This document shows, one piece after another, positions 23,260 to 28,433 of a DNA stretch of 34,668 nt. How positions within the stretch are numbered: the stretch's first letter is position 1; each line of letters starts with the position of its first letter. This stretch comes from Prevotellaceae bacterium (GTDB taxonomy: Bacteria > Bacteroidota > Bacteroidia > Bacteroidales > UBA932). Made by a program: the position numbers and the translations under genes. The stretch covers positions 1 to 34,668 of the forward strand of contig JAITIL010000022.1 in NCBI GenBank assembly GCA_031279475.1, written 5' to 3'. The notes under the pieces are model-generated. The model was not told the origin of the DNA. It saw only the letters and a list, made by a program, of their open reading frames with translations, and ran no database searches.

Positions 23260-23349
23260 GGAACGCCTGCCTGCTTTAAATTGCGACATCCTGTTATTCA
23301 CATCACTTTTATTCATTTTATTTTATTGATTTTGAAATAATTATAAATT

Positions 23350-23459
23350 TACTCAGTATATTGAGTAAAAATACTCAGGTTATTGAGTAAATTTATTCAA
23401 AATATTGAGTATATTTGCGCGTGATATTGAGTAAAAATACTTAGGCTATTGAGTAAATT
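23350..23459. repeat. Five tandem 22-bp dyad repeats upstream of the DUF4143 gene
   Basis: Five units begin at 23350, 23372, 23394, 23416 and 23438, exactly 22 bp apart. Each holds an 18-bp dyad TACTCA-N6-TGAGTA followed by an A/T-rich 4-bp spacer. The right half TGAGTA is identical in all five. The left half is TACTCA, TACTCA, TATTCA, a degenerate TGCGCG, and TACTTA. The array ends 8 nt before the ATG at 23468. Two more units with the same 22-bp phase lie behind the gene (24668-24707). It looks like a cooperative protein-binding operator or an iteron-type array. It is not CRISPR, as there are no unique spacers. Confidence 0.9.
23410..23417 (+). promoter_or_regulatory. -7 box inside the repeat array
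   Basis: TATATTTG is a perfect TAnnTTTG match that runs from the end of repeat 3 into the left half of repeat 4, the only half-site that has lost its consensus. It predicts a start near 23424, about 44 nt before the ATG, with further repeat copies on both sides. Confidence 0.55.
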
Positions 23460-23467
23460 TAAAAAAT

Positions 23468-24652
23468 ATGTATAAAAGAACTTATTTAAAGACACTTGCA
23501 AAAAGAATATTGGAGCCAAGATCCTTTATCCAAGTGATTTTTGGGCCTCGTCAGGTAGGAAAAACCACCATGGTTACCCAACTATTGAAAGATACTCGCC
23601 TGCCCAATTTGTACGAAACGGCCGATGCGGTAGTCGTAGACCAATCGCTGTGGATATCGCAGGTTTGGGAAAGGGCGCGGATGCTATTAAAAGCCGCAGA
23701 GGCTCAAGAGTTCCTGTTGATTATCGACGAAATTCAGAAAATTGAAAATTGGAGCGAATATATCAAGCGGGAATGGGATCAGGACACACGCGAAAACGTC
23801 AACATCAAGGTGGTGTTGCTGGGCTCGTCGCGCATGTTACTGCAAAAAGGGCTCACGGAATCAATGGCCGGGCGTTTCGAAACAAACTATCTTGGGCACT
23901 GGTCGCTGTCCGAAATGCAAGACGCTTTCGGGTGGAGTGCCGCGCAATATATTTATTATGGAGGTTATCCGGGCGCCGTATCGCTTATCAACGATGAAAA
24001 CCGTTGGAAAAACTACATCAAAGATGCGCTGATTGAAACCAGCATTTCAAAAGACATCATCATGCTCACGCGGATTGACAAGCCCGCTTTGCTCAAACGG
24101 TTGTTCGAATTGGGCACGCTTTATTCCGGACAGATTTTGTCGTTCACTAAAATCATGGGGCAGTTGCTGGACGCAGGGAATAGCACCACGTTGGCCCATT
24201 ATTTACAATTGTTGTCGGAATGTTGGCTTTTGGGCGGACTGGAAAAATATACCGGGGACATTATACGGAAACGCTCGTCGAGTCCTAAGTTTCAAGCATA
24301 TAACAACGCCTTACTCAGCGCGCAAATGAACAATACGTTCAAAAACCTGGTAATTAGCCCTGAAAAATGGGGCAGATTAGTTGAATCGGCTGTAGGCGCA
24401 CACCTTATCAATCACGCGGTAACTGGAAAATACAACGTAGGTTATTGGCGGGAAGGAGGGAGTGAAGTAGATTTTGTACTGGAAAAAGAAGGAAAGGTAA
24501 TCGGACTGGAGGTAAAAAGCGGTGCAAAAGGAGGGACTTCCGGCATGAAGGTATTCCATGAGAAATTCCGTCCCAATAAACTTCTATTGGTAGGCACCGG
24601 CGGTATTCCTTATGAGGAGTTTCTAAAAATAGATCCTACAGGTCTGTTTTAA
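23468..24652 (+). CDS. AAA_14 ATPase with C-terminal DUF4143 nuclease-like domain
   Basis: A 394-residue protein of the AAA_14/DUF4143 family. The P-loop is GPRQVGKTT (Lys32) and Walker B is LLIIDEIQKI (Asp87-Glu88). A sensor-like LLGSSRMLLQ segment and a GGYPGAV motif follow. The C-terminal part holds a PD-(D/E)xK-like signature: Glu333-x-Asp335 in GSEVDFVLEK, then Glu348-x-Lys350 in GLEVKSG. Family members are frequent in Bacteroidetes and Archaea, often as sporadic, apparently mobile or self-interest genes; their function is not settled. It stands alone between atpG and a GH109 gene and is framed on both sides by 22-bp dyad repeats. Intact and probably expressed from a promoter within the array. 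Confidence 0.88.
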   Translation: MYKRTYLKTLAKRILEPRSFIQVIFGPRQVGKTTMVTQLLKDTRLPNLYETADAVVVDQSLWISQVWERARMLLKAAEAQEFLLIIDEIQKIENWSEYIKREWDQDTRENVNIKVVLLGSSRMLLQKGLTESMAGRFETNYLGHWSLSEMQDAFGWSAAQYIYYGGYPGAVSLINDENRWKNYIKDALIETSISKDIIMLTRIDKPALLKRLFELGTLYSGQILSFTKIMGQLLDAGNSTTLAHYLQLLSECWLLGGLEKYTGDIIRKRSSSPKFQAYNNALLSAQMNNTFKNLVISPEKWGRLVESAVGAHLINHAVTGKYNVGYWREGGSEVDFVLEKEGKVIGLEVKSGAKGGTSGMKVFHEKFRPNKLLLVGTGGIPYEEFLKIDPTGLF

Positions 24653-24667
24653 TGCTAATTAAAATTT

Positions 24668-24707
24668 TACTCAATAAGCTGAGTATTTTTTCTCAGCTTA
24701 TTGAGTA
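24668..24707. repeat. Two 22-bp-phased dyad repeats behind the DUF4143 gene
   Basis: TACTCA-N6-TGAGTA at 24668-24685 and TTCTCA-N6-TGAGTA at 24690-24707 start 22 bp apart, the same phase and half-sites as the upstream array. Their two N6 spacers are mutual reverse complements, so the pair also forms a long hairpin. Confidence 0.85.
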
Positions 24708-24713
24708 TTTTTT
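24668..24713 (+). terminator. Hairpin terminator of the DUF4143 gene
   Basis: Perfect 16-bp arms at 24668-24683 and 24692-24707 enclose an 8-nt loop and are followed by six T residues (24708-24713), 15 nt after the stop codon. It fits an intrinsic terminator although the stem is not GC-rich, and it is built from the same dyad elements. Confidence 0.6.
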
Positions 24714-24743
24714 CATATATATAATAAATTCAAAGAAATTATA

Positions 24744-27347: not shown

Positions 27348-28433
27348 GTGGGTACAATTGAAAAATTATATAAGGAATGGTTGTCCATGCAGCCGCTTGA
27401 CGCTAAACTGCAACGAGGTATGAATCAGCAGTTTATGGTGGATTTTAATTACAATTCCAACCATTTGGAAGGCAACGCATTGACTTATGGTCAAACAAAA
27501 CTCTTGTTGCTTTTTGGTGATACGACAGGAAATGCACCCATGCAGGATTACGAAGAGATGAAAGCGCATAATGTTGGATTGGAGCTGATGAAAATAGCTG
27601 CAACAGATAAAGAAAGAGTATTGTCCGAAAATTTTATCAGAGAATTGAATCATACCATTTTGGTGCGTGATTTCTATAAGACAAGCCAGGCTGGGGATTT
27701 CCGTTATAAAATCAATGTTGGCGTTTACAAAACACGCCCTAATTCCGTTATTACGCCGTCCGGTGAATTGTTTGATTATGCCTCGCCGGAAGAGACGCCC
27801 TCGTTGATGGCAGATTTGATAGCATGGTACCGACATGAAGAACAGAAAAAAAATCTGACGGTTGTAGAATTAGCCGCTTTGTTTCACTATCGTTATATCC
27901 GTATCCATCCCTTTGAAGACGGTAACGGCCGAATTGCCCGATTGCTGGTTAATTACATTCTACTCAGAAACCATTATCCGATGATAGTCATCCGGACAGA
28001 CGACCGCGTTAATTATCTTAAATCCCTACATCAATGCGATGTACTGTCAGGGAAAATCCCTTCCGATGGCGCTCATGCCACTTTAGCACAAAGCCAGCCA
28101 TTGATTGACTATATTTCTGATGTGGTGGAGAAAAAATTGATAGCCGTTCTTCAACTTGCCAAAGGGGAAATAAAAGAACTTGTGGAAGCAACAGACGACA
28201 CGAAAAGGGTTACAGAAAGGGCTACAGAAAGGGTTACAGAAAACCAATATATAATTATAAATGAAATAATTAAAAACGAAAGAATAACATCGAAAGAATT
28301 ATCTGAAATAGTGGGAATATCTGCGATAAGCATTAGAGACAATCTTGCAAAATTAAAAGCACGAAAAATTATTAAGCGTATTGGAGGTGACCGGGGTGGT
28401 TCTTGGAAAATCATCAAAAAAGTGGCAGTATAA
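27348..28433 (+). CDS. Fic-domain AMP-transferase with C-terminal winged helix
   Basis: A 361-residue Fic protein. The active-site motif HPFEDGNGRIAR begins at His187, with all catalytic residues present. An N-terminal inhibitory helix motif Ser37-x-x-x-Glu41-Gly42 marks it as self-inhibited (class II). A linker of VTER-type repeats at about 287-297 leads to a C-terminal winged helix (about 305-357, SKELSEIVGISAISIRDNL). Fic enzymes mostly transfer AMP to a protein hydroxyl; the target here is unknown. The reading frame opens with GTG at 27348, 21 nt after the kinase stop; a later ATG at 27387 would shorten it by 13 residues. Co-transcription with the two genes upstream is possible. Confidence 0.9.
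   Translation: MGTIEKLYKEWLSMQPLDAKLQRGMNQQFMVDFNYNSNHLEGNALTYGQTKLLLLFGDTTGNAPMQDYEEMKAHNVGLELMKIAATDKERVLSENFIRELNHTILVRDFYKTSQAGDFRYKINVGVYKTRPNSVITPSGELFDYASPEETPSLMADLIAWYRHEEQKKNLTVVELAALFHYRYIRIHPFEDGNGRIARLLVNYILLRNHYPMIVIRTDDRVNYLKSLHQCDVLSGKIPSDGAHATLAQSQPLIDYISDVVEKKLIAVLQLAKGEIKELVEATDDTKRVTERATERVTENQYIIINEIIKNERITSKELSEIVGISAISIRDNLAKLKARKIIKRIGGDRGGSWKIIKKVAV
28205..28240. repeat. 12-bp tandem repeat in the Fic gene
   Basis: Three consecutive 12-mers, AAGGGTTACAGA, AAGGGCTACAGA and AAGGGTTACAGA, encode the Val/Ala-Thr-Glu-Arg repeats that link the Fic domain to the winged helix. They are in-frame units, as in the linker of the AlbA-domain gene. Confidence 0.85.

Follow-up and report, generated by a model that had tools for sequence, protein, structure and literature searches.

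The window analysed here, a 34.7-kb stretch of DNA taken as a whole, carries an AAA_14/DUF4143 gene framed by a phased array of short dyads. We propose that the encoded protein probably represses its own gene through this promoter array, with copies of the array in phages serving as decoys or false self marks. Computation reveals the array, its conservation with the gene, a joint change of motif and protein, the domains of the protein, the absence of a regulon, and phage arrays with matching base preferences; from these we infer that the protein binds the array, that binding represses the gene and that the phage copies draw the protein away.

The original prediction described seven dyads at a 22-bp pitch, five before the gene and two after it, and all seven are confirmed. 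Their positions in the window are as follows, together with the gene and a candidate promoter element:

23350 to 23367, plus strand: upstream dyad 1, TACTCAGTATATTGAGTA, 0 mismatches to TACTCA-N6-TGAGTA
23372 to 23389, plus strand: upstream dyad 2, TACTCAGGTTATTGAGTA, 0 mismatches, 22 bp after dyad 1
23394 to 23411, plus strand: upstream dyad 3, TATTCAAAATATTGAGTA, 1 mismatch, 22-bp pitch
23410 to 23417, plus strand: TATATTTG, which fits the Bacteroidota -7 promoter element TAnnTTTG and overlaps dyads 3 and 4; a putative promoter
23416 to 23433, plus strand: upstream dyad 4, TGCGCGTGATATTGAGTA, 3 mismatches, left half lost and right half intact, 22-bp pitch
23438 to 23455, plus strand: upstream dyad 5, TACTTAGGCTATTGAGTA, 1 mismatch, ending 12 nt 5' of the ATG, 22-bp pitch
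23468 to 24652, plus strand: AAA_14/DUF4143 gene, PDC-S01 (COG1373 type), 394 aa, assigned from Pfam, PADLOC and an AlphaFold model
24668 to 24685, plus strand: downstream dyad 1, TACTCAATAAGCTGAGTA, 0 mismatches, after the stop codon
24690 to 24707, plus strand: downstream dyad 2, TTCTCAGCTTATTGAGTA, 1 mismatch, pairing with downstream dyad 1 as a hairpin

The right half had also been described as invariant; indeed, TGAGTA is intact in 7 of 7 copies, and the left half varies (TGCGCG in copy 4). Centre-to-centre distances between half-sites switch between 12 and 10 bp, or roughly one half-site per helical turn, thus placing all half-sites on the same face of the helix. The rest of the window holds zero sites with fewer than three mismatches to TACTCA-N6-TGAGTA, and its eight three-mismatch sites compare with 8.4 expected from shuffling. 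Across the same 2.16-Mb genome, ATTGAGTA pairs at the 22-bp pitch occur at this locus only. Of 95 orthologue upstream regions, 40 contain the element TAnnTTTG (10.1 expected), and in 15 it overlaps a half-site; this means that a protein bound to the half-sites would block the promoter.

It is conceivable that the repeats act in RNA, as hairpins of a leader or a terminator. The upstream region folds strongly as RNA (z = -7.6), and the downstream dyad pair folds as a terminator-like 16-bp hairpin followed by a run of T, thus this pair possibly doubles as a terminator. However, the promoter-like element lies inside the array, so that much of the array would stay untranscribed, and the letters of the half-sites are conserved instead of covarying in pairs. 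In some orthologues (L034 and L039), moreover, the right half-site alone survives at the 22-bp pitch, which keeps the protein site and loses the hairpin. We consider RNA hairpins the least probable of all the explanations discussed here.

One line of evidence for a protein-binding array is its conservation with the gene. Orthologues were collected by protein similarity alone, the array not being used, and whether they have such repeats was the point on which the original prediction could fall; they do carry the array. Most have at least two dyads at the 22-bp pitch, and the dyad nearest the gene usually begins about 30 nt 5' of the ATG; array-bearing orthologues occur in Bacteroidota, Balneolota, Chlorobiota, Ignavibacteriota, Fidelibacterota, Myxococcota, Spirochaetota and Pseudomonadota. 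Clades with other motifs (CTAATAA/TTATTAG; TTTGAACATTTTG; TTGAAGATTTTTT) retain the 22-bp pitch, and distant paralogues have upstream repeats at 31-33 bp. In a lag test at p ≤ 0.01, with control genes cleaned of family members, significant upstream repeats were present in 54% of orthologues (46 of 49 of these at lag 22), 37% of paralogues (22 of 23 of these at lags 31-33) and 2% of the other, control genes. By this test, no significant repeat is present in about half of the orthologues and in most paralogues, although many of these orthologues show half-sites by eye. The paralogues L178, L185, L199, L135, L211, L209 and others have repeats of their own about 140 nt upstream, at 31-33 bp and with unrelated motifs such as TCGTCCGAAAAAATGT. 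The downstream array is absent from most orthologues; in several from Cyclobacteriaceae (L053, L055, L056, L058, L062, L069 and L073) another dyad pair lies about 90-240 nt past the stop codon, behind a terminator-like hairpin.

The array motif tracks the protein, not the host. Placed on the protein tree, the TGAGTA label crosses host phyla and changes 10 times versus 22.2 times in shuffles, and 10 is an upper estimate because the scripted label scored some variants (e.g. L041, L063 and L107) as 'other'. Neighbours within one order carry different motifs with different versions of the protein. We also scanned 395 genomes of the phylum for the double dyad (20 fixed bases, 2 mismatches allowed). 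It is present in 34 of them, in 25 beside the gene, in 2 beside a gene fragment, in 6 alone and in 1 as an unrelated tandem repeat; across the 395 genomes there is no sign of a regulon. The solo double dyads, with no detectable gene, are L264, L265, L267, L268, L269 and L261 (genomes G354, G351, G073, G060, G275 and G067), and the site in G067 corresponds to a gene relic in its close relative G062. One locus (L263, G081:C178) has three dyad pairs, at 2791, 3214 and 5809, within about 3 kb, just one of them beside the gene. These data bear on whether a different host DNA-binding protein, common to many bacteria, binds the motif. The PDC-S01 protein is the presumed binder on sequence grounds, which leaves some room for another; however, the same motif stands beside this gene in distant phyla, neighbours of the same order differ in motif and protein version together, and the 395 genomes are without a regulon, making such a common binder highly improbable.

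The protein itself has three predicted parts. Pfam matches of the 394-aa protein to AAA_14 (E = 4e-22) and DUF4143 (E = 1e-24) are both over the cut-offs, and the PADLOC model for PDC-S01, PDLC04791, matches it over the full length (E = 1.3e-181, residues 1-391 of 395). The AlphaFold model (mean pLDDT 90) contains an AAA+ domain, a winged helix and a PD-(D/E)xK nuclease fold, the last two at these positions:

24083 to 24298, plus strand: winged helix, residues 206-277 (HTH helices 226-232 and 239-251), from the secondary structure of the model and motif-linked residues
24359 to 24595, plus strand: predicted PD-(D/E)xK fold, residues ~298-376 (E306, D335, E348-x-K350), from conserved columns and the model

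Across 58 orthologues, G26-R28-Q29-G31, D87-E88 and E348 (Walker A, Walker B and PD-(D/E)xK, respectively) are invariant, and K32, D335 and K350 nearly so. The PD-(D/E)xK-like C-terminus of the original prediction thus finds its counterpart in these conserved columns and in the model, as a predicted nuclease. The gene lies between atpG on one side and a GH109/Gfo-Idh-MocA gene on the other. Further along the window, 2.7 kb downstream at 27348-28433, is a Fic-domain protein with a C-terminal winged helix that matches PADLOC SoFic and PDC-S04.

The winged helix is the domain that would read the array. In clade B, where the motif has switched, the winged helix holds 7 of the 11 clade-specific residues (OR 8.3, p = 0.001), including 5 in the two HTH helices, compared with 0 of 14 in the Cyclobacteriaceae clade, which has retained the motif. 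For clades C and D jointly, enrichment does not reach significance (p = 0.2), and an Ignavibacteriota pair with the motif kept still gives p = 0.05. Residue 239 opens the recognition helix; 76 of 77 class A proteins have T or S there, class B proteins I or L, class C V and class D A. The pattern of clade-specific residues supports, without proving, binding of the protein to its own array. Considering that the array is conserved across phyla and that a motif switch in one clade is accompanied by changes in the winged helix, selection for protein binding, as originally predicted, is well supported; with the absent regulon added, so is the predicted self-regulation of the gene.

Structural relatives were sought with queries that included the AAA+ domain, and this domain dominates the matches. 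The best matches, over residues 1-288, are the archaeal ATPases 2qen and 2fna (Z 16.6 and 16.5), with CED-4 at Z of about 15; these archaeal and STAND ATPases are, along with Orc1/Cdc6, the closest known structures, and the protein here differs in having a nuclease-like C-terminus in place of sensor repeats. Foldseek matches also include the Orc1/Cdc6-type structures 2qby and 2v1u, and a PDB sequence search returned no relative of the 394-aa protein. Orc1/Cdc6-type AAA+ initiators likewise have an AAA+ domain followed by a winged helix, and their origin boxes are repeated. Iteron-binding plasmid initiators use repeated, helically phased sites beside their own gene. Unlike both, the protein here has an additional PD-(D/E)xK domain, and its sites overlie the promoter of an accessory gene in the chromosome, with no sign of an origin. 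Autorepressed restriction and defence operons offer a second comparison, with C-proteins and antitoxins as DNA-binding proteins beside their own operators. In contrast to these operons, one polypeptide here would be both the operator reader and the presumed effector, and the operator is a phased array with one site per turn. In RptR-controlled islands, too, a DNA-binding protein beside its own operator controls a defence gene (PMC12255303).

The family match places the protein among candidate defence systems. It resembles PDC-S01 (PADLOC; AAA_14 plus DUF4143, COG1373) in the full-length match, in being a single gene and in its AAA+ plus PD-(D/E)xK makeup, which has been described for the family (PMC12988326). 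PDC-S01 is reported to be the fourth most common predicted phage-defence system and among the most abundant predicted ones in bacteria and archaea; it is a defence candidate by genomic embedding, and most such candidates await experimental validation (PMC12988326). Our literature search on DUF4143, COG1373 and PDC-S01, in which subscription journals were sparsely covered, found no cis array, lineage-specific operator or phage copies, and nothing on how PDC-S01 works or is controlled.

We propose the following mechanism. The three-part protein would read the TTACTCAAT/ATTGAGTAA half-sites, one helical turn apart, through its winged helix, and several protomers would stack along one face of the DNA via AAA+ contacts, over the promoter of their own gene. 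The bound protomers would hold transcription low, amounting to autorepression. DUF4143 genes reach 27 in one genome, and a site sequence and pitch specific to the lineage (22 bp here, 31-33 bp in distant relatives) would stop cross-regulation among paralogues in one genome. The gene-less arrays of phages would be decoys or false self marks, sequestering the protein in the course of infection, which is to be expected if the protein acts against phages.

The placement of arrays on both sides of the gene has to be weighed against another possibility, namely that gene and array are a mobile unit and that the array is the site at which the protein transposes or homes. A close comparison is available within the genus:

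23260 to 24717, no strand assigned: block absent from the same-genus genome G004, which has 13 nt instead; both arrays and the gene are missing between the same neighbours

This comparison shows gain or loss as a unit without revealing a transposition mechanism. The inverted arrangement of flanking arrays, the absence of the whole unit from the same-genus genome and a distribution scattered over phyla and plasmids speak for a mobile unit. However, most orthologues have the upstream array alone; the empty site in G004 shows no visible target duplication (one comparison, flanks 85-89% identical); and between the arrays there is no transposase, integrase or recombinase domain, the AAA_14/DUF4143 gene being alone there. 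We regard mobility by this route as very unlikely. The mobile or addiction unit of the original prediction is not demonstrated, as neither a target duplication nor a recombinase is seen and most orthologues lack the downstream array. The locus is a single gene, with no second toxin or antitoxin gene in the operon.

The array also occurs in phages. The exact double dyad is found in 14 IMG/VR contigs, whose genes include terminase, capsid, tail-fibre and primosome genes and none of which has the PDC-S01 gene; control searches for the four-half-site pattern gave 0 viral matches with a scrambled half-site and 0 with a 24-bp pitch. A three-half-site pattern occurs in at least 120 IMG/VR phage stretches. 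Among the matches listed, 113 phage loci were newly fetched, with the array intergenic in 112 and the gene present in 0; PF13635 is absent from 18 virus records, which are mostly fragments. The expectation that the array goes mainly with the gene thus stands for bacteria (25 of the 34 genomes) and fails for phages, where it comes without the gene; the latter pattern suggests conflict with phages. The flanking genes of the listed loci fall into about 16 unrelated clusters or contexts, with neighbours including terminase, major head protein, ribonucleotide reductase, replication O-like, DNA methyltransferase and baseplate genes. The array can be present or absent among phages whose terminase or capsid genes are closely related. 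At the positions left free by the search, base preferences of phage and orthologue arrays correlate at r = 0.91, a value reached in 0 of 20,000 column permutations; since the two match, a single kind of protein would be expected to recognise phage and orthologue arrays alike. A BLAST search of the array against isolated phages gave short weak matches only.

Two explanations for the phage copies were considered. First, decoy or counter-defence sites are the simplest reading. Second, the array may be an operator through which phages use the host PDC-S01 protein to control genes of their own, instead of sequestering it. Regulation of phage genes is conceivable since the distance from the array to the next gene (tail fibre, methyltransferase, terminase) is 1-50 nt in some cases. 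However, the 16 contexts share no consistent downstream gene, and the largest group has the array inside a mosaic of dyads, 200-330 nt upstream of terL, so we hold the operator explanation to be quite improbable. In L535:1-639 and L545:243-923, a DNA methyltransferase gene follows the array at 17 and 44 nt. The terS-terL intergenic region (200-1160 nt; L276:1916-2800, L300, L280:11325-12085, L292-L371) is a hypervariable mosaic of short dyads, among them GTTCACGAAACCGTGAAC, TGTAACA..TGTTACA, GTAGTAATACTAC and TGAGCCG..CGGCTCA, and the TGAGTA array is one member of this mosaic.

Array-bearing intergenic regions of phages hold many further short dyads. A wider phage library of decoys for other PDC-S01 operators was therefore sought in 12-mers shared with 153 upstream regions of the family, with nothing convincing; one candidate module, TATCAAAA-N17-TTTTGATA, matched bacterial genomes at control level only, so such a library is unsupported. 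The operators of two other PDC-S01 lineages had no viral match, but they are too rare for this to be informative. A literature search on phage operator decoys, with sparse coverage of subscription journals, found no precedent among the papers listed. A related case is ToxIN, where phage escape mutants carry pseudo-ToxI, copies of the host ToxIN repeat that neutralise the system. ToxI is an RNA antitoxin, whereas the element copied here is a DNA operator, shared by many unrelated phages, whose neutralising effect is hypothetical.

The phage copies further raise the possibility that the array serves as a DNA antitoxin or as a mark of self, where the ATPase-nuclease is inactive when bound and attacks when free or when meeting unmarked DNA. 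Gene and array would then form an addiction or immunity unit, and phages would carry the array as false self. The conserved PD-(D/E)xK residues, the array on both sides of the gene in some relatives and the gene-less phage arrays are all consistent with this. However, loss of the gene is tolerated, as orthologues are easily lost and leave solo arrays or relics, a point that bears on loss of the gene and not of the array; in addition, autorepression explains an array on the promoter without extra assumptions. An antitoxin or self mark of this kind is thus unlikely, and autorepression with phage decoys is the reading we prefer. We put forward more tentatively, as possible and somewhat short of probable, that PDC-S01 is an anti-phage ATPase-nuclease that treats its own array as a self mark or an off switch, and that phages from many lineages have convergently acquired intergenic arrays as decoys.

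The array provides a handle on PDC-S01: the DNA ligand and the reading domain are both defined, residues 221-239 and 272 are candidates for specificity, and the proposed control mechanism lends itself to straightforward testing. The gene-less phage copies are independent evidence that the PDC-S01 protein matters to phages. If they are decoys, they would represent a counter-defence that needs neither protein nor RNA, made of binding sites alone and findable by operator sequence. The same operator search could reveal further defence genes that phages fight.
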